From positions 1 to 45,977 of IMG/VR virus record IMGVR_UViG_3300046323_000300: a stretch of 45,977 bases of DNA; one strand, given 5' to 3'. A program made the position numbers and the translations under genes. The first letter of the stretch is position 1. Every line of letters begins with the position of its first letter. A model generated the notes under the pieces. That model was not told where the DNA came from, searched no databases, and worked only from the letters and a program-made list of their open reading frames with translations. Shown piece by piece: positions 1 through 45,977 of the stretch. The stretch is from a virus.

Positions 1-127
1 TAATTGTAGATGCTAGTCATGGCACTGGGCGCAGAGATTTAGTCGCTCCTATGACATTGGCAGGGGTGGCCGCTGGTTCTGGTGGTTGCCTTGTGGAGTG
101 CCATTTGGAGCCATCATTGTCTATAAG
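1..127. repeat. Terminal direct repeat, left copy (circular overlap)
   Basis: These 127 bases are identical to 45851-45977. The repeat lies inside one open reading frame that continues without a break when the ends are joined, so the molecule is circular or circularly permuted, with 45,850 unique bases. 127 is a common assembler k-mer size, so I infer an assembly overlap rather than a physical terminal repeat. Confidence 0.97.
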
Positions 128-209
128 TGATGCAGATCAAGCCATTACACCTTTTGAGTTGAGTGAATTAAGCTATAAAATTAACAAAGTTAGAGAGGCT
201 ATCCGATGA
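1..209 (+). CDS. 3' part of the DAHP-synthase-like gene
   Basis: The frame enters at base 3 and stops with TGA at 207-209. It encodes the C-terminal third, including the histidine, glutamate and aspartate metal ligands (DASHGTGRRD, VECH, SISD). Bases 1-127 duplicate the other end of the window; 128-209 are present only here. The stop overlaps the ATG of the next gene at 206. Confidence 0.92.
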   Translation, partial: IVDASHGTGRRDLVAPMTLAGVAAGSGGCLVECHLEPSLSISDADQAITPFELSELSYKINKVREAIR

Positions 210-415
210 AAAAATCAATTGCAGCAAAAAACTACTGGTTCAATTATACGGCTAAACGTCGATACGAAGAACAAATGCGCCGTGATCAAATGACAATACA
301 AAAGAAATTCTCTCATGCGTTGACTAAACAATACGCACATATGATGAACTTCTTTGTTCGGCTTTGGTATGCTATTCAATGGTACATTAATAAATTATTT
401 AAAAAGGTGGCTTAA
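206..415 (+). CDS. Small basic hypothetical protein
   Basis: 69 residues, rich in lysine, arginine and aromatic residues, with a probable helix at 45-63 (MMNFFVRLWYAIQWYI) that is amphipathic or membrane-associated. The start overlaps the end of the DAHP-synthase-like gene and the stop overlaps the next start (TAATG), so it is translated as part of this operon. I do not recognise a family. Confidence 0.7.
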   Translation: MKKSIAAKNYWFNYTAKRRYEEQMRRDQMTIQKKFSHALTKQYAHMMNFFVRLWYAIQWYINKLFKKVA

Positions 416-4698: not shown

Positions 4699-5721
4699 TT
4701 AAACCGCCTCTAAAGCTAGTTCTAAAGCAAAATCATTTGTGCGGAGTGCGCTGCCGAACCAATTATTATATAGACGAGTCGAAGATCCAGTCAGTTCGTT
4801 TTGGCTTCCAGAAAAGTGGGTCAGGAATTCGGTTGCAGCGTTGTAAGCGCCAAACCATGTTCCAGCAGCAGTTTTCAAGTGCGCTCCAGCTCCATTTTCG
4901 AACAGATTCGTGATTGATTCCTGCATTTTTTTAGCTCGCATTTGATCACGCTCGGTGCCAGTTGAGTTCAATTCAAAAACTATATTGATGTATTTTTCAA
5001 GATCCTTTTTGTTGATATTTTTCTTAGTAAGTGCTCGATATTGCTCTGCAGTTGCCTCGAATTTTGCGTCGATGGCATTGACTGTGCGCTGGATTTCGTC
5101 CAAATTTTCCTTAACCGATTGAGAATGTTTAATGCGGATAATTGAGTCTGCGGTATCGGCACCCCTAGAAAGCTGGTTCTGGCACCAGAAACGATTAGGA
5201 TTAAACGCCACTCGAACCGCCATGTTTCCGTTGTGGCCATTTGAAAGCAAAAGATGCTTATTGATGATGTCGCCGCCACCGAGATCAATCGGAGCTTTAT
5301 TTAGATTAGCCAAAACCCAAATTACGTTCCCGCCCTTTAATTCTCCAGCAGCCTCAAATGAAGCAAGCCCTGCGTCTACGAACGGATTGAAGAAGTTAAA
5401 AGCATGTTCATTTTGAAGTGGATGGTATGAGCTTTTTTGCAAAGAAAGAATTTTACCATCGGAGCTTCTAACAAGTGCCTGCGATTTAGGAACTTGCTGA
5501 AAAGATCCATCATTGATCTCGGTAAAAATTGGTTTAGATTCTACCTTCCAGTCTAGGCCAGCAGCTTTAATAGCCTCGGCTGCGGTTTTCGCTTCGTTGA
5601 CTTTGCAGCCATCTTTCGACCAAGGGGAAACATGCACGAGGCCGTTTCCTTTAGTCCCGTAAATTGCCATACGCTGCTCTTTATGATATCGGCCTCTCGG
5701 TTGTTGTTGCGTTGCTGTCAT
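4699..5721 (-). CDS. DUF932 phage/plasmid-like protein
   Basis: 340 residues from ATG 5721, where AGAGGA lies 4 bases upstream; an ATG at 5742 is also in frame. It matches the DUF932 / phage-plasmid-like (TIGR03299) pattern: SLQKSSYHPLQNEHAF near residue 100, a glycine-rich LLLSNGHNGNMAVRVAF segment, CQNQLSRG, and a C-terminal TWFGAYNAATEFLTHF. The family is common on plasmids and phages and has no settled function. It is the largest protein of the leftward early operon. Confidence 0.85.
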   Translation of the reverse strand: MTATQQQPRGRYHKEQRMAIYGTKGNGLVHVSPWSKDGCKVNEAKTAAEAIKAAGLDWKVESKPIFTEINDGSFQQVPKSQALVRSSDGKILSLQKSSYHPLQNEHAFNFFNPFVDAGLASFEAAGELKGGNVIWVLANLNKAPIDLGGGDIINKHLLLSNGHNGNMAVRVAFNPNRFWCQNQLSRGADTADSIIRIKHSQSVKENLDEIQRTVNAIDAKFEATAEQYRALTKKNINKKDLEKYINIVFELNSTGTERDQMRAKKMQESITNLFENGAGAHLKTAAGTWFGAYNAATEFLTHFSGSQNELTGSSTRLYNNWFGSALRTNDFALELALEAV

Positions 5722-5754
5722 AAATCCTCTTTTCTGCCTCAAAGGGCTTTGTTT

Positions 5755-6297: not shown

Positions 6298-6319
6298 CGA
6301 CCATAGTGGAGTTGATAAA

Positions 6320-6931
6320 ATGAATATAAAATGCGCCCATACCGAACTAGTGCCAGTTGATAAACTAATCATGCTGCAAAACCCAAAAAACAATAATAAG
6401 CACCCAAAAGAGCAGATTGAAAGGCTAGCCAAGATAATTGATTTTGCTGGCCAACGGCGCTCTATTGTGATCTCGAAAAGATCAGGCTTTATCATCAAAG
6501 GCCACTGCACTTTGCAATCTATAGCCAAATTGGGGTGGGATAAAGCAGCCGTTGATTACCAGGATTACGAAACCGAAGCTGCCGAATATCAGGACATGAC
6601 TGCAGACAATGAAATAGCTCGGTGGGCAAAACTCGACATTGATAAAATCAAATTGGATCTAAAAACCATCGATCTGGGCGACTTTGAATTGCTCGGTTTG
6701 GAATCAACTGAGGAATTATTCTCGGAGCCTAAAGAAGCGGATCTTCCAAACATGAGTGGGGTAAATCCGACTTATAGGCAGAGAACTTTTGTCCTAACCG
6801 ATGAGCAAAACACCCTAGTAGACGAAGCCATGAAGCGAGCAAGCGACGAAGAAGACTGCACCGATGAAGTGAATGAGAATAAAAATTCCAATCAACTAGT
6901 GGCGGCTTTAAGGGCATATGTTCAAAGCTAA
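6320..6931 (+). CDS. ParB/sulfiredoxin-fold N-terminal domain protein
   Basis: 203 residues. The N-terminus has the ParB-like pattern: VPVDKLIMLQNPKNNNKHP, IERLAKIIDFAG, IKGHCTLQSIAKLGW (GHCTLQS replaces the usual GHxRxxA) and ADNEIARWA. Phage proteins of this class are often linked to DNA modification or methylation genes. Here it overlaps the Mom-like gene by 14 bases, which supports a joint role (inference). The C-terminal third (FVLTDEQNTLVDEAMKRA) resembles tails of phage ParB-like proteins. It is the first gene of the rightward early operon. Confidence 0.82.
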   Translation: MNIKCAHTELVPVDKLIMLQNPKNNNKHPKEQIERLAKIIDFAGQRRSIVISKRSGFIIKGHCTLQSIAKLGWDKAAVDYQDYETEAAEYQDMTADNEIARWAKLDIDKIKLDLKTIDLGDFELLGLESTEELFSEPKEADLPNMSGVNPTYRQRTFVLTDEQNTLVDEAMKRASDEEDCTDEVNENKNSNQLVAALRAYVQS

Positions 6932-7706
6932 AGATATAGTCATCAAAGTAATAGACTCAAAAAGTGCATCAGAAATAGTCAAAAGGCTCCACTATTCAGG
7001 CAAGGTTGCCAATAATTCTCAAATCCATTTCGGGGTTTTCCTAAACGGAACTCTCCAGGGCGCTCTGCAGTTTGGCGCTTCAATCGATAAAAGACGAATG
7101 GCTCAAAACCTTGGCATTGGGTTTAATGAATCTTTAGAGCTTAATAGAATGGCACTTTCAGACCAATGTCCGAAAAATTCCGAGAGTCGAGCTTTAGGCA
7201 TTTGTCTACGTCTCTTAAAAAAGACCTACCCTCATTTAAAAGTCATTGTCTCTTTTGCTGATGCTTGTCAATGTGGTGACGGAACGATCTATCGTGCCTC
7301 GGGCTTCAAGCTCCACTCATTCAAGAAAAACAATTCTCTCCTTCACGATCCTACTGGCAAGATTGTGTTCAATCATGGCTCTAAAAAGTACAAAGGGGGG
7401 GGCGTTATCGCTAAAAAGTCATTGGACAATCACCTCAGGGAAGATGGGAAGTATCTCTCATCATCATTAAAAAAGCAGGGTCTGGTGCCTATCGAGGGCT
7501 TTCAGATGAAATATCTATTCTTTTTCGACAAAGAGCTGGAAAAGAAATTCAAGTTCGTAGAATTTGACAAGATACCTGATTCCGTGAGAATGTATAAAGG
7601 CAAGCGCACTGGAAGCAAAAATGATGTTGCGTCTCCCGTCCAGGGGGAAGATGGAGGTTTGATTCCTACCCCAGTGCTCCATAACTCCGCATCTCAAAAA
7701 AAATAA
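6918..7706 (+). CDS. Mom-like DNA base modification protein (GNAT fold)
   Basis: 262 residues. The first 135 match the Mu Mom-type family: RLHYSGKVANNSQIHFGVFL (23-42), GALQFG (48-53), ELNRMALSD (74-82), ICLRLLKKTYPHLKVIVSFAD (95-115) and GTIYRASGF (122-130). Mu Mom converts adenine to a methylcarbamoyl-type derivative and protects phage DNA from restriction. The C-terminal half (140-262) is longer and basic. It overlaps the ParB-like gene, as expected for a co-expressed pair. No Com-like translational activator was recognised nearby. Confidence 0.8.
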   Translation: MFKAKDIVIKVIDSKSASEIVKRLHYSGKVANNSQIHFGVFLNGTLQGALQFGASIDKRRMAQNLGIGFNESLELNRMALSDQCPKNSESRALGICLRLLKKTYPHLKVIVSFADACQCGDGTIYRASGFKLHSFKKNNSLLHDPTGKIVFNHGSKKYKGGGVIAKKSLDNHLREDGKYLSSSLKKQGLVPIEGFQMKYLFFFDKELEKKFKFVEFDKIPDSVRMYKGKRTGSKNDVASPVQGEDGGLIPTPVLHNSASQKK

Positions 7707-10671: not shown

Positions 10672-10899
10672 ATGGAAATTTTTAAACGAGATGCAAGCAG
10701 CACGATTAAACAAAATAAGGCACTCGTTCTTTTTAATGAGTTAGGCCTCACAGATGAGGAATTATCTAAAATGTCGGGAGTAGACAAAACCGATATTAAG
10801 AAATTTTCAGCAGGGACGCTGAGACTTTCTCACCGATCATTTTTTAGAATATCAATGGCGTTGGTTTCTGAAAAGATAGCGAGAAAATATGTCTCATAA
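10672..10899 (+). CDS. Small helix-turn-helix-like protein
   Basis: 75 residues. A Cro-like pattern is visible: FNELGLTDEELSKMSGVDKT, then DIKKFSAGTLRLSHRSF. It follows the zinc-ribbon gene immediately after its stop and overlaps the GGQ gene by 11 bases. It could be a DNA-binding regulator. The match is moderate. Confidence 0.6.
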   Translation: MEIFKRDASSTIKQNKALVLFNELGLTDEELSKMSGVDKTDIKKFSAGTLRLSHRSFFRISMALVSEKIARKYVS

Positions 10900-11227
10900 G
10901 AAAAAAGAGCTTCTATTTAGATTAACCGCCAAGGACTTTGACTTTCAAGCAAAGCGTGGATCTGGAGCTGGAGGCCAGAAGAAAAATAAAACTTCTTCTG
11001 CTATCCAATGCTTTCATCAACCGAGTGGCGCTATGGGAGAGTCCGAAGACCAAAGGGAGCAATCTCAGAATAGGAAAATTGCATTTAAAAGATGTACCGA
11101 TACTTTAGAGTTTCGAGCATGGCTGCGCATGAAGACTGACGCTGCTATGGGGAGAATTGAAATCACTGAGTCAGATGAAAATGGTGTCGAACGGACTCGA
11201 CTTTTAGATCACCAGGAGGTCAAGTGA
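10889..11227 (+). CDS. Release-factor-like protein with GGQ motif (RF-1 domain)
   Basis: 112 residues. The RF-1/ArfB catalytic pattern is present: RGSGAGGQKKNKTSSAIQ (23-40), with GGQ at 28-30, followed by a basic segment NRKIAFKRC. GGQ proteins hydrolyse peptidyl-tRNA on the ribosome. It lacks the codon-recognition domains of RF1 and RF2, so stop-codon-independent release (ArfB/PrfH-like) is the better comparison. The phage use is unknown; ribosome rescue or host translation control is possible. Confidence 0.82.
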   Translation: MSHKKKELLFRLTAKDFDFQAKRGSGAGGQKKNKTSSAIQCFHQPSGAMGESEDQREQSQNRKIAFKRCTDTLEFRAWLRMKTDAAMGRIEITESDENGVERTRLLDHQEVK

Positions 11228-17845: not shown

Positions 17846-17895
17846 TGTTGATTTAGTTAATCTTTGTGTTTTAATTGAGACAGTGGAGGTCTAAA

Positions 17896-18639
17896 ATGGT
17901 TGTTGGAATCATTGGAAACGGCGTCGTCGGTGGGACTCTAAATAAATGGTTTGTGGAAAACACCACTCATGAAGTGCGTTTGTATGATCCACCTAAAGGT
18001 CATCTTGATTTCTTGACCGATTGTGAAGCAATCTTCATATCAGTGCCAGTTCCTCCGAAAGCTGGTGGTCAAGATACTACTCTTCTCGCTGAGTCGGTCG
18101 AATTAGCTAAAAAATATACTCAAAATGTCTTCATTAGATCCACTGTTCTACCTGGAACAAACGATCATTTCAAAACAATTTCAATGCCTGAGTTTCTAAC
18201 AGAACGCAAAGCGTATTCTGATATGACAAAGTACCCGATTCTTTCTGGTGAATGTGATCCTCAATTGCTAGAGAGAGTCTTCCCAAATAAACAAATTATA
18301 ATGATGAAAAACACCGAGGCCGAGCTCTCGAAGTATGCTCACAATTGCTTTGGCGCTATGAAAGTGACTTACTTTAATATTATCAACCAAATGTGTGAAA
18401 TCTTTGAGATTGATTATGAAAAAGTATTAAAAGGGTGCATGATTACTGGTTTCATCGAGTCGCAACATACAAAAATAGCACTTGATGGTCAAAAAGGGTA
18501 TGGGGGCAGATGTTTTCCTGAGAATATCGATTCATTTATTAATTTGTTGGACACTATTGATATGAATCACGAAGCATCATTCATCGAACGAATTAAAAGT
18601 TTAAACGAAACCTATCGAACAACAAACGAGGAGTTTTAA
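17896..18639 (+). CDS. Truncated UDP-sugar dehydrogenase-like protein
   Basis: 247 residues from ATG 17896 (GGAGGT upstream). It matches the N-terminal and central domains of nucleotide-sugar dehydrogenases: NAD motif GIIGNGVVGG (4-13), SVPVP (49-53), STVLPGT (82-88), AELSKYAHN (142-150, K146 and N150) and GYGGRCFPEN (201-210, with the catalytic C206 of the GGxCFPKD site). Full-length enzymes have about 390-450 residues; the C-terminal UDP-binding domain is missing. It may still oxidise a nucleotide sugar or bind it in another way. It couples directly to the next gene. Confidence 0.82.
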   Translation: MVVGIIGNGVVGGTLNKWFVENTTHEVRLYDPPKGHLDFLTDCEAIFISVPVPPKAGGQDTTLLAESVELAKKYTQNVFIRSTVLPGTNDHFKTISMPEFLTERKAYSDMTKYPILSGECDPQLLERVFPNKQIIMMKNTEAELSKYAHNCFGAMKVTYFNIINQMCEIFEIDYEKVLKGCMITGFIESQHTKIALDGQKGYGGRCFPENIDSFINLLDTIDMNHEASFIERIKSLNETYRTTNEEF

Positions 18640-18851: not shown

Positions 18852-19030
18852 TGAAAGAACATAAAGATTGGTTCAATGAAGAAGTAAGTGCTGCGTTTAA
18901 TGAAGTTAAGAACGCCTTAATCGAGGACTACCAAGATAAATACATAATTCATAGCCTAGTAAAGCTTATTAATTCATGTAAATTTCTTATTACTGAAATA
19001 AAAGCTAAACCAATGGACTATGATTTATGA
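18848..19030 (+). CDS. Small helical hypothetical protein
   Basis: 60 residues, helical (EEVSAAFNEVKNALIEDY, VKLINSCKFLITEI). Overlaps of 4 bases at both ends tie it to the sugar operon. No family recognised. Confidence 0.62.
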   Translation: MMKEHKDWFNEEVSAAFNEVKNALIEDYQDKYIIHSLVKLINSCKFLITEIKAKPMDYDL

Positions 19031-19977
19031 AAATTTTAATCACAGGCGGCGTTGGCTTTATTGGTTCCAATCTTTGCTCGCATCTTTTAAACGAAGGTCA
19101 TGAGGTAATGTCCTATGACTCTTTAGTGAACCCATCAATAGACCCGACTGATCGAATCAAAGCGAAAAGTGGTCAGAATTGGGATAACTTCACATTCTTT
19201 CACGGCGACATTAGGGATATGACCACGCTCCAATCTGCTGCCGCTATGTTCGCTCCTGATGTTATTATCCATTTGGCTGCATTGGGTTCGGTTCCTAGAT
19301 CGTTCGCTAATCCTTCCGAAGTCCTAGAGGTCAATTGTGTCGGATTCTCTAATGTGATGATGGTCGCTACAATGCTAAATGTGAAACGAGTGGTATTTGC
19401 TTCATCATCATCGGTTTATGGAGACAGTGATGCCAAAATCAGATCAGAAGAAACAATCGGTAATCCATTAAGTCCGTATGCGTTATCTAAAAGAATGAAC
19501 GAGCAGTTCGCAGAAGTCTGGTGCAAAGGTATTCAATTACAATATGTCGGATTAAGGTTCTTTAATGTTTACGGCGCAGGTCAATTACCCGACAGTCCAT
19601 ATTCCGCGGTGGTTCCACGATTTTTGACCGAGAAATCTATCACTATTCACGGAGATGGTGAAACAGTCCGAGATTTCACATATGTGGACGATGTTTGCGA
19701 AGCCATCGAATTAGCTCTAACCACGGACAAAACGAACGATGTCTATAATGTTTGTTCAGGAAATGGCACCACACTCAATTATCTGAGTAAAATATGTAGC
19801 GATTCAAAAAAAGACATTAAGCATATCGCAGAGCGTCCAATGGACATCAAACATTCAATCGGCGCACCATTCAAGTCTCAATTATTCCTTAAGTTCAAGG
19901 CATCATATGACATTGAGACAGGGATAGCGCATACTAGAAAGTACTACGAAAGCCTAAAGGGAATTCATAATTTGTAG
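19027..19977 (+). CDS. NAD-dependent sugar epimerase/dehydratase (SDR)
   Basis: 316 residues, full-length for the extended SDR family. Seen: TGGVGFIGS (6-14) NAD motif, HLAALGSVP (82-90), SSSSVYG (126-132) and catalytic YALSK (Y151, K155), then GLRFFNVYG. It resembles UDP-glucose/UDP-GlcNAc 4-epimerases. With the upstream dehydrogenase-like gene it suggests phage-directed nucleotide-sugar conversion. The substrate cannot be read from sequence. Confidence 0.88.
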   Translation: MKILITGGVGFIGSNLCSHLLNEGHEVMSYDSLVNPSIDPTDRIKAKSGQNWDNFTFFHGDIRDMTTLQSAAAMFAPDVIIHLAALGSVPRSFANPSEVLEVNCVGFSNVMMVATMLNVKRVVFASSSSVYGDSDAKIRSEETIGNPLSPYALSKRMNEQFAEVWCKGIQLQYVGLRFFNVYGAGQLPDSPYSAVVPRFLTEKSITIHGDGETVRDFTYVDDVCEAIELALTTDKTNDVYNVCSGNGTTLNYLSKICSDSKKDIKHIAERPMDIKHSIGAPFKSQLFLKFKASYDIETGIAHTRKYYESLKGIHNL

Positions 19978-20003
19978 TATGAAACGTACAAAGTAGGGAC
20001 AGT

Positions 20004-20390
20004 TTGTTTCAAAAAGGTAATAAGTTATCAAAAGGTGGCCAGAAGCTCGACCCTGATCTAAGGGGTGTGAAGCTATTGAATCAACGAGAAGTTGAAAAGT
20101 TGGTCAATAAGTTGCTATCTTGGCCAGTTCGAGAGCTAGAGGCGTATAGTATTGATAAAAATAACCCTGCTGGTGATGTTATGGTGGCGCGGGTTGTTAT
20201 CGAGGCTATCAGAAGCGGTGATGAGAAGCGTCTCGAATTCATCTACAACCGATTATTGGGTAAACCTAGAGAGACGCGAGATGTAAACGTGAAGAACGGA
20301 AATCTCCACGATGAGCTAATGAGGCTGCAAGATGAACTCGAGCGAGATGTGACGCCGAGATTGGGCTATCATGGCGACCAAGAAGACTGA
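20004..20390 (+). CDS. Small terminase subunit candidate
   Basis: 128 residues from TTG 20004 (TAGGGA upstream). The opening FQKGNKLSKGGQ and the following helical region, with ARVVIEAIRSGDEKRLEFIY and LLGKPRE, match phage proteins that precede TerL and are typed as small terminase or DUF5681-like. It probably recognises the packaging site. It overlaps TerL by 20 bases. Confidence 0.75.
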   Translation: MFQKGNKLSKGGQKLDPDLRGVKLLNQREVEKLVNKLLSWPVRELEAYSIDKNNPAGDVMVARVVIEAIRSGDEKRLEFIYNRLLGKPRETRDVNVKNGNLHDELMRLQDELERDVTPRLGYHGDQED

Positions 20391-31305: not shown

Positions 31306-32289
31306 ATGAACAAAGACATGATGAGAGCTCAATCAGAGTCAGCATATAAGCAGTGGGCTCCACAATGGAGAAAACAGGCTAAAACTAACTCTATTCACAA
31401 TATGAAATCCTTGGCGGATCTAGAAAACTCTGGAGTCGGGAAAGCCGTTTTGTGCGTAGCTAATGGGTATTCTTTAGAAGAAAATATCAAAACAATCCAA
31501 AAAAATAAGGATAATGTCGACATCATAGCTTGTGATAAAACAATGGGTCATTTATTTAATCACGGAATTACCCCTAAATATGTGATGGTTTGTGATGCTA
31601 ACGTATCATATGAGACTTATATGAAGCCTTGGGAGAACAAACTTCAAGATACAATACTTCTTTCTAATGTTTGTGGATCTACGGAATGGCCAGCAAAAGG
31701 GAATTGGAAAGATAAATATTTCTTTATCAATTGCGATATATTGGGAACTGAAAAAGAATTCTCCGAAATATCGGGGTGCAAGAACTTTATACCTGCAGGA
31801 ACGAATGTTTCAAATGCTATGCTTGTAATATTGGCACAATCAGACAATGATGGTAAAAGGAATTTTTTTAACTATGATAAAATATTACTTATTGGGTACG
31901 ATTATTCGTGGAGATTCGGTGGAAAATACTACGCTTTCTGTGAAAAAGGCGGAGGAAAAGACAAGTATATGCGCCATCAATACCTCCAAACCTCAGACGG
32001 AGACTTTGCCTATTCATCGGGCAATCTTACGTTTTCTGCTCAATGGTTTGAGGACTATGTCAGGACTTTTAACCTTCCCGTTGTGAATTGTACGACAAAA
32101 AGCATCTTGAGCTTAAAGACTGGAAATCTCGAAGAACAAATGCAGTACAGTTTTAAACCAGAAGATTCATCAATTTTAAAACAAGCTTTTGATAATGTAA
32201 GAAAATTAGAAGCTGCAAAAAATGAATTACTAAAATTAATTAAAGGCATTGATCGAGAGCATAGGCACTCGTTCTTAGCCTCAGTTTAA
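31306..32289 (+). CDS. DUF115/Maf-like glycosyltransferase-type protein in the tail module
   Basis: 327 residues. The core resembles DUF115 (MptE-like/flagellin-modifying Maf) proteins: GKAVLCVANGYSLEENIKTI, then GITPKYVMVCDANVSYETY, FIPAGTNVSNAM and ILLIGYDYSW. Known Maf proteins transfer CMP-activated nonulosonic sugars to flagellin. Here the gene lies between the tail terminator and major tail protein genes, so a tail protein is a possible acceptor (inference). An inactive or non-transferase role cannot be excluded. Confidence 0.78.
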   Translation: MNKDMMRAQSESAYKQWAPQWRKQAKTNSIHNMKSLADLENSGVGKAVLCVANGYSLEENIKTIQKNKDNVDIIACDKTMGHLFNHGITPKYVMVCDANVSYETYMKPWENKLQDTILLSNVCGSTEWPAKGNWKDKYFFINCDILGTEKEFSEISGCKNFIPAGTNVSNAMLVILAQSDNDGKRNFFNYDKILLIGYDYSWRFGGKYYAFCEKGGGKDKYMRHQYLQTSDGDFAYSSGNLTFSAQWFEDYVRTFNLPVVNCTTKSILSLKTGNLEEQMQYSFKPEDSSILKQAFDNVRKLEAAKNELLKLIKGIDREHRHSFLASV

Positions 32290-40811: not shown

Positions 40812-41264
40812 ATGAACTTAATTTTAAAAGCCACCAATTGCTTTAATAACCAACGCCGACGATGCTATACGCCAACTAACCCGAGGTTCAAAGATTACGG
40901 AGCAAAAGGAATCAAAGTAGAATACAAAAAAGCCGAATTTATAGCATGGTATTTGAAGAATTACATTGAATTTAATGGTCAAATTAGTTCAGTTGGCAGG
41001 ATAGATCACTCAAAAAACTATAGCTTTGATAACATCGAATTCCAGTCTTTAGCCGAGAATTCTATGGAGAGGATTAATCGGTGCGGTTCTACAAAACCAA
41101 GAATAAAAGTCGATATCTATCTATTTGGCACATTCTTAAAAACTGTCGATAGTGGATTAGAAGCTTCACGGCAGACTGGTATTTTAAGCACCCACATTCC
41201 AAAGTATTGCAAAGGTAAGATTAAACAATCTAAAAAAGGGTATTCTTTAAAGTATGCTGAATAA
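40812..41264 (+). CDS. HNH-type homing endonuclease-like protein
   Basis: 150 residues. RRRCYTPTNPRFKDYGAKGI and GRIDHSKNYSFDNIEFQSLA, with SLAENSMERINR, match the phage HNH family that reads CYxPxHxxYxxYGGRGI and RIDxxxxYxxxNxxW. The final part (LKTVDSGLEASRQTGI) looks like a NUMOD1-type DNA-binding module. It is probably a selfish nuclease. Its start has only a weak ribosome site, and it overlaps the radical SAM gene by 11 bases. Confidence 0.78.
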   Translation: MNLILKATNCFNNQRRRCYTPTNPRFKDYGAKGIKVEYKKAEFIAWYLKNYIEFNGQISSVGRIDHSKNYSFDNIEFQSLAENSMERINRCGSTKPRIKVDIYLFGTFLKTVDSGLEASRQTGILSTHIPKYCKGKIKQSKKGYSLKYAE

Positions 41265-42225
41265 TATAAGAAATAAATTTAATTACGGACTATACAGATT
41301 TAAGTATAACAATGCACCTAAGTTGGATCTTGATCGCCCAGTAGATTTAAGCTTGGAATTAAGTTCTGCTTGTACGCTGCGGTGTGCCTACTGTTATCAC
41401 TCTGATACAAAAACGCTCCCCTTCAAAAAGGGTCTAATGTCCTTCGAATTGGCTAAAAGCCTAATAGAGCAGGGCTCCGAAATCGGGGTTCATTCCATTA
41501 AATACAATGGTCGGGGAGAATCCACCATGCATCCAAGGTTCAAGGATATTACATGGCTTGGGAAGAAATACGCCAAAGGCCGAACTTATATCGATAGAAT
41601 CACGAACTCGAACTTCTATTTTAGGAACAATCGAGATGAGATTTTTGAGGGATTAGCCAATCAAACAAAGGTTAAAGTTTCCTTTGATTCATTCAATAAA
41701 GAGGTCTTTGAAAAACAAAGAACTGGTGCGAGTTATTACAATGTTCTAACAAACGTATCAACCTTCTATCATTCTCGATGGAGAATCAAATCCGACACTC
41801 AATTGGTCATCCAGGCGGTGCGAACTCAGTTAAATAAGGACGAGGATATTGAGGGAGAAGTTAAAAAACTATGGCCAGAGGCTATCCTATCAGTCAGAGA
41901 TATGGTCGGCGGTCGGGTCGATAAAGACGTGTCTGATTTAGAGAACTTAAGTCGAGATAACCGAGAGCGTCAATCATGCATCCAGGCTCATGCTCGGTTA
42001 ATCGTTCACCATGATGGCAAAGTGGCACCATGTTGTCCAGCTTTCAAGGGAGACCTCATAATAGGGGATACGAACAAAGACTCGCTATACCATATTTACA
42101 ATTCATTAAATGCGAAAACATTACGCAAGGAATTATTGAACGGAGAAGCGTTTAAATTAGATCCATGCAAGACCTGCTCAAGTCACGAATCATATAAAGG
42201 GTATATCCCAAACAAGGAGAGTTAA
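41254..42225 (+). CDS. Radical SAM protein with SPASM-like C-terminal cluster region
   Basis: 323 residues. The radical SAM motif CTLRCAYC (C40, C44, C47; CxxxCxxC) follows LSLELSSA. GVHSIKYNGRGESTMHP fits the SAM-binding GGE-like strand. A second cysteine set (C242, CC 260-261, C305, C308) matches an auxiliary Fe-S (SPASM-type) region. The family includes peptide- and sugar-modifying enzymes. The substrate is unknown; the sugar-gene context suggests glycan or cofactor chemistry. Confidence 0.85.
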   Translation: MLNNIRNKFNYGLYRFKYNNAPKLDLDRPVDLSLELSSACTLRCAYCYHSDTKTLPFKKGLMSFELAKSLIEQGSEIGVHSIKYNGRGESTMHPRFKDITWLGKKYAKGRTYIDRITNSNFYFRNNRDEIFEGLANQTKVKVSFDSFNKEVFEKQRTGASYYNVLTNVSTFYHSRWRIKSDTQLVIQAVRTQLNKDEDIEGEVKKLWPEAILSVRDMVGGRVDKDVSDLENLSRDNRERQSCIQAHARLIVHHDGKVAPCCPAFKGDLIIGDTNKDSLYHIYNSLNAKTLRKELLNGEAFKLDPCKTCSSHESYKGYIPNKES

Positions 42226-42680: not shown

Positions 42681-42811
42681 TGGATTGGTTCTGGAAACTT
42701 TTCGATAATATTGAGTGCGTTGTTTTAGGTCACGATTATTCAGAATCAGAATATGGAATAATGTATACAAAATACACTTGTAGATGCTGTGGAAAAGAGA
42801 AAATAGAATGA
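42680..42811 (+). CDS. Small DUF1660-like zinc protein
   Basis: 43 residues. The pattern CVVLGHDYSES then YTCRCCGKEKIE fits DUF1660-type phage mini-proteins, which start with a C-x-x-x-GH motif and end in CxxCGK. It is coupled by one-base overlap with DUF3310 and by 4 bases with the next gene. Confidence 0.62.
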   Translation: MDWFWKLFDNIECVVLGHDYSESEYGIMYTKYTCRCCGKEKIE

Positions 42812-43293
42812 AAGAAGTTTGGAAAGAAATACCAGAGTACGATGAGTATGAGGTTTCTAATAATGGAAACATTAGAAAGAATAAGTTAAAAATAATAAAA
42901 TCATTTACCTATAAACTAGGGTATTTGGGAGTAACTCTATTTAGAGATAAAAAAAGAAAAATATTTCTAGTTCATCGTATAGTTGCATTAACATTTATTG
43001 GAGAGATACATAAAGGTATTCAGGTTAATCATAAAAATGGGATTAAGGCAGATAATAGGATTGAAAACTTAGAGCTTTGTACTGCATCTGAAAATCAAAA
43101 GCACTCATACAGAGTACTAAAGAGATCCAGACATATCGGAGAAAATCACCCTGTTTCTATTCTAACAAATGAGAATGTTTATAAGATAAAGTATCTAGAG
43201 AATGGTTCTCAAAGAAAAATAGCTGAAAAATATGGGATAAGCCAAACTCAAGTAGGCGCGATAAAGCTAAATAAACAATGGAAGCACATATGA
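42808..43293 (+). CDS. NUMOD4-HNH homing endonuclease
   Basis: 161 residues from ATG 42808 (ATGA overlap; an in-frame start at 42784 is less likely). NUMOD4: EVWKEIPEYDEYEVSNNGNI. HNH core: LVHRIVALTFIG, GIQVNHKNGIKADNRIENLE and TASENQKHSYRV. The C-terminus has an HTH (KIAEKYGISQTQVGAIKLN). Classic mobile nuclease found in phages. Confidence 0.88.
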   Translation: MKEVWKEIPEYDEYEVSNNGNIRKNKLKIIKSFTYKLGYLGVTLFRDKKRKIFLVHRIVALTFIGEIHKGIQVNHKNGIKADNRIENLELCTASENQKHSYRVLKRSRHIGENHPVSILTNENVYKIKYLENGSQRKIAEKYGISQTQVGAIKLNKQWKHI

Positions 43294-44666
43294 CTGCAAT
43301 AATAATTTGTACCAGAACCGATAGCGAGAGGCTTCCGAATAAGCCGTTTAGAAAGATCAACGGAACTCCGTTAATTGAGCACCTTATTAAGCGACTCCAG
43401 AAAGTAAATATACCCATTATTATTGCTTTTCCTCGGGAGCAGAAAGAGGCGTATTCGGTTTTAAAAGGCCTGGAGAATGTGATTCTGCATCCGTCTAAAT
43501 TGTATGGAGATCCACTCCGTCGAATGAATGAGGCAGCTATGGCGCACGATGTGGATACAGTGATTAGGGTTTCTCATGATAAGATTTTAGTTAATCCAGC
43601 AGACGTTGACGCAGCTATTTTGGACTTTCAAAATATGAAATTAGAATACTTGTATGGATCTAAATTCACACCTGGAACTGGGTTTGAAATCATTGGAATA
43701 GATGCGCTTCAACGTGCCGCCAAGAAGTTCAAGAATGTAGAATATATAGGCTATTCTGTTAGATCGGTGACTCCCAAAGAGAATATTTACAATTTTAATC
43801 CACGACATCAGCGTGGTGGGTTCCGTTTTCTCATAGATTATGAACAAGACTTAAAATTATTTGAGGTACTTTTATCGCAGCTTGGCGATAATTTGTCACT
43901 TTTGTCGGCCATGAAATATTTGGCCGATAACCCAGAAATTAAAGAAATAAACAAAATGCCAGTGATGACAGTTTACACTTGTGCGCACAATGCAGAGGAG
44001 TGGATAGAACGCTGCATGGATTCAGTTGCTCGCCAGAAGCATTTTTCTCGATATGAATACATTTTAATCGACGATCACTCCAAGGACAAAACCCTCGAAT
44101 TGATGGCTAAATTTGCTTTAAAATACCCGAATGTTTCATGGTCTAGGAATGGTGAAAATTTAGGATTATCGTCATCTAGCAATATTGCGTTGAAAAAAGC
44201 TCGTGGAAAATACATTCTCCGACTCGACGCAGATGATTATTTTGTGTCGACTACTGCGTTAGATCAAATGCTCAAGGCTATATCTGAGTCAGAGAAAGAT
44301 GCAATTTACCCCAACAATTACTTTGGGTCATTAAATACAATTCAGAACGGAAAGGAAAAACATCATGTTGGCGGTGCTATCTTCGATAAAGACGCAATTA
44401 ATCACATTAAGTTCACTGATGGACTTTCAAACCATGACTCTCTCGATATTTTTCTTCGTGCTAAATCTCAACTCGATATTGGATACCTTCAAAAGGCTAT
44501 GTTTTTTTACTATCAGCATGGTAAGTCGATGTCTAAAACCAATCTTGCCAATAGGGAAGAAATCAAAGAAAAGCTCCTAACTAAGTGGGCTAGAGATGAT
44601 TTTTATGACGAAGACGATGAAGTCGATTTCAAAGAATTAGGGGTGGACATTGAGCCGAGTCACTAG
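43290..44666 (+). CDS. Cytidylyltransferase-like domain fused to GT2 glycosyltransferase
   Basis: 458 residues from ATG 43290 (ATGA overlap; a start at 43278 is upstream). Residues 1-222 resemble the SpsF/NeuA/KdsB nucleotidyltransferase group: IICTRTDSERLPNK (5-18) and FRFLIDYEQDL near 178-188. Residues 223-458 are a GT-A GT2 domain: MTVYTCAHNAEEWIERC, DDHSKDK (261-267) and the metal-binding DADD (313-316). The fusion could activate a sugar acid as CMP-sugar and transfer it. The substrate is unknown. Confidence 0.86.
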   Translation: MTAIIICTRTDSERLPNKPFRKINGTPLIEHLIKRLQKVNIPIIIAFPREQKEAYSVLKGLENVILHPSKLYGDPLRRMNEAAMAHDVDTVIRVSHDKILVNPADVDAAILDFQNMKLEYLYGSKFTPGTGFEIIGIDALQRAAKKFKNVEYIGYSVRSVTPKENIYNFNPRHQRGGFRFLIDYEQDLKLFEVLLSQLGDNLSLLSAMKYLADNPEIKEINKMPVMTVYTCAHNAEEWIERCMDSVARQKHFSRYEYILIDDHSKDKTLELMAKFALKYPNVSWSRNGENLGLSSSSNIALKKARGKYILRLDADDYFVSTTALDQMLKAISESEKDAIYPNNYFGSLNTIQNGKEKHHVGGAIFDKDAINHIKFTDGLSNHDSLDIFLRAKSQLDIGYLQKAMFFYYQHGKSMSKTNLANREEIKEKLLTKWARDDFYDEDDEVDFKELGVDIEPSH

Positions 44667-45036
44667 AAAATACCCATCGATCGATATTATGAAGCTCTGG
44701 ACATTGGGCTCGGCTAACGGATGGAACGAGCAATTGGACAAGTGCGTTCACAATCAATCAATCAATGAACTCGCAAGAATCCGTTATGGCCTACAGGCAG
44801 GCATGACCGACCTTGCTAATCAAAAATTAAATGACGAAAAGATGAATGTTTTTTACGCACGACTAATGAAGTCTTTGGAAAACACCGCAAGATTAATAGT
44901 TCGAAAGATTCACCCCTTACCGCACGATGCTCCGACTATTCATGGAATCAAAAGCAAGCATCCAGTAAGTGCGCTAGTGGCAAAAAGAAACCGTGACAGA
45001 GAAATGGAATTGTTCTTTAATAAGAGCAGTTTCTAG
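44650..45036 (+). CDS. Small hypothetical protein beside the sugar genes
   Basis: 128 residues from TTG 44650, supported by AGGGGTGG 4 bases upstream and a 17-base overlap with the GT2 gene. It is helical and basic (LIVRKIHPLPHDAP). No family recognised. Confidence 0.66.
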   Translation: MSRVTRKYPSIDIMKLWTLGSANGWNEQLDKCVHNQSINELARIRYGLQAGMTDLANQKLNDEKMNVFYARLMKSLENTARLIVRKIHPLPHDAPTIHGIKSKHPVSALVAKRNRDREMELFFNKSSF

Positions 45037-45043
45037 GAGAAAT

Positions 45044-45250
45044 ATGTTAGAAAAATTACAGCAAAAACAAAAAGATTTAGAACAAGCTTTGATTGATATT
45101 CAAAAAGAGATCGAGGTCGAGCAATTTAAAGCTGATATAAATACAATCGAGAAGATTGAGGTTTATGTCCAGTCAGAAAGCAATTCATTCACCTTTGAGG
45201 TTAATAAAAATAATCATAAAAAATTCATAGATTTATTGGTGGGATTATGA
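45044..45250 (+). CDS. Small coiled-coil protein
   Basis: 68 residues from ATG 45044 (AGGAGA upstream). The first half is a coiled coil (LQQKQKDLEQALIDIQKEIE) and the end is beta-like. The stop overlaps the DAHP-synthase-like start (ATGA), so the two are translationally coupled. No family recognised. Confidence 0.66.
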   Translation: MLEKLQQKQKDLEQALIDIQKEIEVEQFKADINTIEKIEVYVQSESNSFTFEVNKNNHKKFIDLLVGL

Positions 45251-45977
45251 GCTTTGCCGATAGACGAGTTTGGGGTTTAAATCCTCGGTACGACCTAGTC
45301 CGTAATTATAAACCCAAGGATAATTCATTTGTTTTCATCTCAGGATCATGTTCGGTGGAATCTCGGGAGCAAGTCCTTCAAATTGCCAGCTATGTAAAGC
45401 GAGCAGGTGCCACTCATTTAAGGGGTGGGGTATTCAGAGCAGGGACTTATCCAGGCAGCAAGTTCGGATGGGTTCCAGAACCTTTGATTCAATCATTTTA
45501 CGAGGCAGCGCAAACCAATGGGTTGAAAAACATCATTGAGGTTTTGGACTATTCCGACGAATCATTTAAACTTATTGAGCCGTACTGTGATTGCTTTCAG
45601 GTGGGCGCTCGTTCGATGCAAAACTATACCTTGCTAAGTAAGCTAGGAAAATATAAAAAGCCAGTATTTTTAAAAAGGAATACAGGGGCGACCTTAGATG
45701 AGTGGCTCGGTGCCGCAGAGTACCTTCTAAAAAATGGCGTCGAGGAGTTGTATCTAATTGAAAGAGGTTCATCTACATTCCTTAATCATGTTCGGTGGGA
45801 TCTATCGTTGAGCCTAATCCCAGCAGTTAAAGCCCTCAGTGATATTCCAGTAATTGTAGATGCTAGTCATGGCACTGGGCGCAGAGATTTAGTCGCTCCT
45901 ATGACATTGGCAGGGGTGGCCGCTGGTTCTGGTGGTTGCCTTGTGGAGTGCCATTTGGAGCCATCATTGTCTATAAG
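45247..45977 (+). CDS. DAHP-synthase-like (class I-beta) enzyme, 5' part; gene continues at 128-209 across the join
   Basis: After circularisation the gene is 45247-45850 plus 1-209 and encodes 270 residues. It aligns by eye along its whole length with class I-beta 3-deoxy-7-phosphoheptulonate synthases, which condense PEP with an aldose phosphate in a TIM barrel. Seen: GSCSVES (33-39), RGGVF (59-63), GARSMQN (120-126), KPVFLKR (138-144), IERG (171-174), DASHGTGRRD (205-214), VECH (233-236) and SISD (242-245). The four metal ligands of the family fit C35, H208, E234 and D245. The aldose-phosphate loop, KPRTSxY in true DAHP synthases, reads RAGTYPG (64-70), so the co-substrate may differ. The ATG overlaps the upstream stop as ATGA. 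It lies after a cytidylyltransferase-GT2 gene, which suggests sugar-acid synthesis rather than shikimate supply (inference). Confidence 0.9.
   Translation, partial: MSFADRRVWGLNPRYDLVRNYKPKDNSFVFISGSCSVESREQVLQIASYVKRAGATHLRGGVFRAGTYPGSKFGWVPEPLIQSFYEAAQTNGLKNIIEVLDYSDESFKLIEPYCDCFQVGARSMQNYTLLSKLGKYKKPVFLKRNTGATLDEWLGAAEYLLKNGVEELYLIERGSSTFLNHVRWDLSLSLIPAVKALSDIPVIVDASHGTGRRDLVAPMTLAGVAAGSGGCLVECHLEPSLSI
45851..45977. repeat. Terminal direct repeat, right copy (circular overlap)
   Basis: Exact copy of 1-127. Joining the window at this repeat restores the reading frame of the DAHP-synthase-like gene. It should be counted once in the genome. Confidence 0.97.

Follow-up and report, generated by a model that had tools for sequence, protein, structure and literature searches.

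Automatic annotation assigns class I-beta DAHP synthases to the shikimate pathway and, for viromes, to the amino-acid auxiliary metabolic genes. NeuB, PseI, and LegI take sugars without a phosphate and yield products that are activated directly; the Kdo and Neu5Ac-9-P routes need a phosphatase. In Aro1A, PEP is bound by R60, K65, R120, K141, and R171, and erythrose 4-phosphate (E4P) is bound through the motif KPR[TS], with R67 and T68 as ligands (PMC6362186). Maf enzymes move CMP-activated nonulosonates, Kdo included, to Ser/Thr residues of flagellin (PMC11339370).

The window analyzed here is the whole 45,977-nucleotide stretch of the virus record IMGVR_UViG_3300046323_000300. It carries a gene, F3, that an initial annotation had described as a DAHP-synthase-like enzyme with an altered sugar-phosphate loop. 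From its active site, its gene neighborhood, and the enzymes found in its place in related phages, F3 is likely a ulosonate synthase derived from class I-beta DAHP synthases that feeds a phage CMP-ulosonate pathway.

Extent and family assignment of F3

An exact direct repeat of 127 bp lies at the two ends of the window, positions 1 to 127 being identical to 45851 to 45977, and joining them gives a circular record of 45,850 bp. F3 starts at an ATG at 45247 on the plus strand, downstream of GGTGGG, a good ribosome site, and its frame is open to the window end, so that the 5' part (45247 to 45977) encodes residues 1 to 243. Because the terminal repeat closes the record, the ORF is complete. It runs through the circular join into positions 1 to 209 (plus strand), of which 1 to 127 duplicate 45851 to 45977, and ends at a stop codon at 207 to 209, giving 270 aa with no internal stop. 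Homologues of F3 align over the join, and the gene 3' of F3 in the window matches the gene 3' of theirs. A truncated or degraded gene was ruled out by the closure of the ORF through the repeat, and a host fragment or contamination was ruled out by the capsid, portal, terminase, and tail genes around F3 and by its presence in 21 other contigs.

F3 matched Pfam DAHP_synth_1 with E = 4.5e-47 (160.7 bits), which together with the 21 conserved phage homologues places the resemblance beyond chance. Among solved structures, it comes nearest to class I-beta DAHP synthases, namely, those of P. furiosus, A. pernix, and T. maritima. An AlphaFold model with a mean pLDDT of 84 backed the fold; 1VR6, 1RZM, and 3PG8 ranked first with Z of about 31, so that the (beta/alpha)8 scaffold is nearest to class I-beta structures, the scaffold that the initial annotation had recognized. 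The sugar-phosphate loop was modeled with a pLDDT under 50, and therefore no loop geometry is claimed. F3 scored under all NCBIfam cut-offs for DAHP synthase and KDO8P synthase: 236.5 for the window protein and 245.5 for its relative L005 on TIGR01361 (cut-off 267.75), 265.7 and 272.7, respectively, on NF006421 (cut-off 335), and 47.2 bits on the KdsA model TIGR01362 (cut-off 314). On the NeuB-family model PF03102, the score was 26.9 bits, over the threshold of 22.1, against 160.7 on DAHP_synth_1.

Conserved ligands and a rebuilt loop in the active site

The active site was compared in an alignment of 21 phage F3 sequences with 30 cellular I-beta and 8 KdsA sequences. The four residues proposed earlier as metal ligands, C35, H208, E234, and D245, aligned with the known ligands and were invariant in 21/21 phage members; among the cellular I-beta sequences, one of the 30 has Asp at alignment position 234. 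The predicted PEP ligands R59, Q118, R122, K143, and R173 were also invariant in all 21 phage sequences, and the Aro1A ligand K65 is replaced by R64.

In the loop, R64-A65-G66-T67-Y68-P69 stands in place of K-P-R-T-S-P (45436 to 45453, plus strand). All 30 cellular I-beta sequences carry K-P-R-[TS] and all 21 phage sequences carry R-A-G-T, so F3 lacks the E4P-binding motif; the longer form RAGT[YF]P was invariant in the phage members and was found in 0/30 cellular sequences. The altered loop noted in the initial annotation (RAGTYPG for KPRTSxY) is thus a fixed property of the phage proteins. It comprises four changes, each fixed or nearly so in phages, namely, K to R64, P to A65, R to G66, and S to Y68, at positions where the cellular enzymes have K, P, and R in 30/30 each and S in 28/30. 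The Arg that binds E4P in Aro1A (R67) is Gly in 21/21 phage sequences, and it is kept at the aligned place in 8/8 KdsA sequences. The KdsA substrate motif KANR[ST] is absent from F3. Within the 182-187 stretch (HVRWDLS), positions 182, 184, 185, and 187 were re-fixed in the phage clade as V, W, D, and S. One relative, L085 (contig G029), has an odd loop neighborhood, reading GSCFCES and RSGVYRAGTF. Two neighboring motifs had also been reported as divergent: GSCSVES does have Ser for Pro, but only in the window and L061, nearly all other relatives having GPC, and GARSMQN proved to be a mild variant of the usual GARxxQN.

F3 therefore departs from two defining traits of DAHP synthases, the E4P motif and the curated cut-offs, and from two of KdsA. 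Since the metal and PEP ligands are kept and the sugar-phosphate loop is rebuilt, the PEP chemistry is expected to be preserved, with a different second substrate.

Gene cassette around F3

In every complete main-lineage locus, the gene order is F1-F2-F6-synthase-F4, on one strand and downstream of the tail-fiber genes. In the window, where all lie on the plus strand, F1 (41254 to 42225) encodes a radical SAM/SPASM protein, with CxxxCxxC in every cassette scanned. F2 (43278 to 44666) encodes a CTP_transf_3 domain of the KdsB/NeuA/SpsF type fused to a GT2 glycosyltransferase. F6 (44650 to 45036) encodes a small conserved protein for which a family search matched no family, and F4 (415 to 1701) combines a Cys4-type N terminus, Methyltransf_23, and a TPR-like C-terminal region. 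From F2 to F4, the genes overlap or lie a few bases apart, with small ORFs in between: a 68-aa ORF (45044 to 45250, plus strand) overlaps the F3 start by 4 bp, and a 69-aa ORF (206 to 415, plus strand) lies between F3 and F4 and overlaps both. A wider gap precedes F4 in L087 and L088. By eye, HNH homing endonuclease-like ORFs were seen inside the cassette (42784 to 43293) and before it (40812 to 41264).

The N-terminal domain of F2 scored 62.4 bits on PF02348, over the cut-off. The motif RxxSxRxPxK was found in the window F2 and in nearly all other F2 ORFs; it was missing in G040, L015, and L085, and in the last two the ORFs had been split or started late through ORF choice. In L085 (G029), F2 occupies two ORFs at 6319 to 7660. 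The last residue of F6 was Tyr or Phe in 18/18 members, often as ...FLRKSS[YF]-COOH, and F6 accompanies either type of synthase described below; it was undetected in the most divergent cassettes (L016, L087-L089, G040, and G042). Neither a conserved phosphatase nor a sugar-precursor pathway was recognized in the cassette, and no flippase, polymerase, or acceptor gene was recognized. A Pfam scan of 20 window ORFs found no shikimate family, and to that extent the earlier statement that shikimate genes are lacking nearby holds. F3 adjoins separate CTP_transf_3-like and GT2-like genes in a distant phage of 57 kb, in which neither a capsid nor a Maf homologue was detected. A literature search found no published account of the F1-F2-F6-synthase-F4 cassette and no described phage system with it.

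A NeuB-family gene in the same slot

Among phages reached through the capsid gene, not through F3, five contigs (G036, G037, G038, G039, and G040) shared the cassette, and the place between F6 (or F2) and F4 was taken by a NeuB-family gene. NeuB-like proteins were scanned from G036, G038, G040, and two contigs that have both enzymes, and all five scored over the PF03102 gathering score. F2 was carried by 29 of 44 contigs, of which 20 had F3 only, 7 a NeuB-like gene only, 2 both, and none neither; the capsid-found F2-carrying contigs had one or the other in 9/9 cases (F3 in 2, NeuB-like in 7). All contigs are from uncultured phages and many are fragments, so these are counts of contigs and not of independent events. 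Mapped on a tree of F1, F2, and F4, synthase type needed three changes, two of them forced by well-supported branches. The swap occurred at least two or three times.

The two contigs with both enzymes (L007 and L015) have the NeuB-like gene and F3 side by side in one cassette and lie on two separate tree branches. In G039 (19513 to 20230, L237/L238), a stop separates two pieces of the NeuB-like gene that lie in different frames, indicating either a broken gene or a sequencing error. The NeuB-like proteins are only about 225 to 260 aa, too short for the C-terminal domain of classical NeuB, and their own substrate is therefore uncertain. The best evidence for F3 as the maker of an ulosonic acid is its exchange with NeuB beside a CMP-sugar synthetase. 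This repeated exchange is also a natural test of the functional equivalence of two PEP-aldol synthase families, and as two unrelated-looking synthases should give substrates for one cytidylyltransferase, the substrate question is directly testable.

Distribution and phylogeny

In scans of viral contigs, F3 homologues with about 47 to 70% identity to the query turned up in 21 further contigs, and two additional F3 contigs were reached via capsid-gene neighbors. In a maximum-likelihood tree, the phage proteins formed a single clade (100/100) whose stem measured 1.18, and KdsA formed a separate clade (100/100). The initial annotation had named a placement well inside the bona fide DAHP synthases as counting against its reading, and the tree did not give one, though the phage clade branched among the I-beta enzymes; the reference sample was modest and the tree leaves the donor lineage unsettled.

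The exact pattern LRGGxFRAGT, searched in one genome per species for 84,980 bacterial and archaeal species, gave 36 matches, none of them relatives; in viral contigs, 17 of its 18 matches were relatives. The exact pattern overlooks variants, so rare cellular F3 members may exist. An initial genome scan with 3 sequences gave no match. When 149 genomes of one phylum were scored against the phage F3 profile, the best reached 255 bits, compared with 304 and 331 for two new phage members outside the profile-building set. A cellular origin of the RAGT motif was rejected on the absence of relatives among the 84,980 genomes by exact motif and on the profile ceiling of 255 bits in the one phylum sampled. 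In a collection of isolated phages, the matches to F3 were unannotated records with identities of at most about 42%, and several of these records were short; F4 and F1 had no close match. F3 thus seems to be phage-specific, having so far been found only in phages.

Elsewhere in the window, a Mom-family protein (6918 to 7706; PF25680, E 4.5e-46) suggests DNA adenine modification by the phage. A UDP-sugar dehydrogenase-like protein of only 254 aa (17875 to 18639) and a nucleotide-sugar epimerase (19027 to 19977) are encoded next to the terminase genes, and genes like these two recur in some related phages (G036 and G041). A stand-alone RF-1 domain protein of 112 aa (10889 to 11227) represents a release-factor-like phage gene, and a DUF932 protein is encoded on the minus strand (4699 to 5742; PF06067, E 2.3e-41).

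A Maf-like gene among the tail genes

A gene at 31306 to 32289 (plus strand), flanked by a tail-completion-type ORF and a tail gene, scored over the PF01973 cut-off. Its AF2 model (pLDDT 92) has the Maf fold, matching the Maf glycosyltransferase 5MU5 with Z of 22.4 over 236 residues; archaeal HPPK, which also shares the fold, gave 16, and sialyltransferases, including CstII, about 10. Of the 29 F2-carrying contigs, 28 have the gene, as do further contigs of the lineage, and in all near-complete members that were examined, tail genes flank it. A specific tie to F3 was ruled out, as it occurs with either synthase; it marks the lineage rather than F3.

Maf chemistry, combined with a Maf-like fold among tail genes, makes a virion target plausible, although F2 carries its own GT2 domain and a Maf role is not required. 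The likeliest acceptor would be a phage virion protein, with a host surface glycan second. If the Maf-like gene encodes the transferase, these phages would put ulosonic acid on their own virions, of which no described case was found in a literature search.

Proposed pathway and alternative explanations

In the order of steps that we infer, F3 would act as a metal-dependent enzyme whose active site retains its PEP/metal half. Its second substrate, joined to PEP, would be some aldehyde other than erythrose 4-phosphate, probably lacking a terminal phosphate. The product would be converted to CMP-ulosonate by the CTP_transf_3 domain of F2, with modification by F1 and/or F4 along the route, and the GT2 domain of F2, the Maf-like protein, or both would then transfer the sugar. 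In its most extended form, the proposal is tentative and may well be wrong in part: an uncultured tailed-phage lineage would have its own CMP-ulosonate pathway with interchangeable synthases, either a virus-only descendant of DAHP synthase or a minimal NeuB. The former would make a 3-deoxy-ulosonic acid not yet described, starting from a non-phosphorylated aldehyde, and the lineage would glycosylate its own tail via the Maf-like transferase.

It is possible, if somewhat doubtful, that the cassette instead remodels the host surface polysaccharide, in serotype change or superinfection exclusion, with the F2 GT2 domain as transferase and the Maf-like gene unrelated. The PHROG matches of that domain are GtrB-like O-antigen conversion proteins, and prophage EpaA/EpaB convert the pseudaminic acid of the host capsule (PMC12053666). 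However, the Maf-fold gene keeps its place between tail genes throughout the near-complete members examined, the cassette follows the tail-fiber genes, and, as noted, a flippase, polymerase, or acceptor gene was not recognized.

The second question concerns the substrate. The initial annotation had proposed an aldose phosphate other than erythrose 4-phosphate; that F3 is no ordinary DAHP synthase is supported, but the phosphate is doubtful. F3 using another aldose phosphate, held by R64 or the new 182-187 region, with a host phosphatase then freeing the product for CMP activation, is unlikely but deserves consideration. The known substrates of KdsA and DAHP synthase, in the same superfamily, are phosphorylated, the change to R64 adds a guanidinium that could still hold a phosphate, and four positions of the 182-187 region were re-fixed in the phage clade. 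Against this, the shared phosphate-binding Arg is Gly in F3, and the NeuB family that replaces it is best known for unphosphorylated sugars. The lost Arg, together with the lack of a conserved phosphatase recognized in the cassette, favors a free aldehyde by a modest degree, and a non-phosphorylated substrate is at least as likely as a phosphorylated one.

An ordinary auxiliary metabolic gene, that is, a real DAHP synthase boosting the host shikimate pathway, is very unlikely. DAHP synthase is the best family match of F3, PHROG 5045 is labeled an auxiliary metabolic gene, and 3-deoxy-7-phosphoheptulonate synthase is listed among viral amino-acid genes in a virome study (PMC13303688). These labels are outweighed by the loss of the E4P-binding Arg in every phage member, by scores below every NCBIfam DAHP-synthase cut-off, and by synteny with CMP-sugar genes in a slot that NeuB-like genes can take. 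The fixed loop, the CMP-sugar cassette, and the NeuB-family replacement indicate that F3 very probably makes a different 3-deoxy-ulosonic acid, as originally suggested. A whole phage clade carrying the DAHP-synthase label almost certainly does something else, and the label is misleading. Least probable of all, and barely credible, is a protein-bound aldehyde made on F6 by the SPASM enzyme F1 and condensed with PEP by the synthase: many SPASM enzymes act on peptides and F6 ends in Tyr or Phe with both synthase types, but F6 escapes detection in the divergent cassettes listed above, and we know of no precedent for DAHP-synthase folds acting on proteins.

For F3 as a ulosonate synthase, the first reading was thus supported in part, and it is extended here by the wrap-around of the gene, the cassette, the NeuB swap, and the Maf-like gene, none of which it had included.

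Comparison with known systems

Class I-beta DAHP synthases (T. maritima 1RZM/1VR6, P. furiosus 1ZCO, and A. pernix 1VS1; TIGR01361) share with F3 the (beta/alpha)8 fold, with Z of about 30 to 31 and 35 to 38% identity, and the metal and PEP ligands except for K65, which is R64. Unlike them, F3 has RAGT[YF]P for KPRTS, scores below the cut-offs, forms a separate clade, and lacks a shikimate context. KdsA (TIGR01362) has in common with F3 the superfamily, the metal ligands, and a likely coupling to a KdsB-type cytidylyltransferase, but its identity to F3 is about 24%, its KANR[ST] motif is lacking in F3, and its clade is separate (100/100). NeuB/SpsE/PseI (PF03102) occupy the same cassette slot in sister phages and perform the same general chemistry, PEP plus aldose to ulosonate, but are a distinct sequence family.

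The nearest pathway logic is that of the B. subtilis sps legionaminic acid pathway, in which the synthase SpsE is followed by the cytidylyltransferase SpsF (PMC7439481). That pathway differs in consisting of sporulation genes of a cell; to our knowledge, it includes neither a DAHP-synthase relative nor a CTP_transf_3::GT2 fusion. The Maf flagellin glycosyltransferases (5MU5; Maf of C. botulinum and G. kaustophilus) share the PF01973 domain and the fold (Z 22.4) with the phage gene, but the latter encodes about 330 aa, lies among tail genes, and scores far below the PseD cut-off. Finally, prophage EpaA/EpaB (PMC12053666) are likewise phage-encoded enzymes in ulosonate chemistry, but they do not synthesize pseudaminic acid; they modify only what the host has made.
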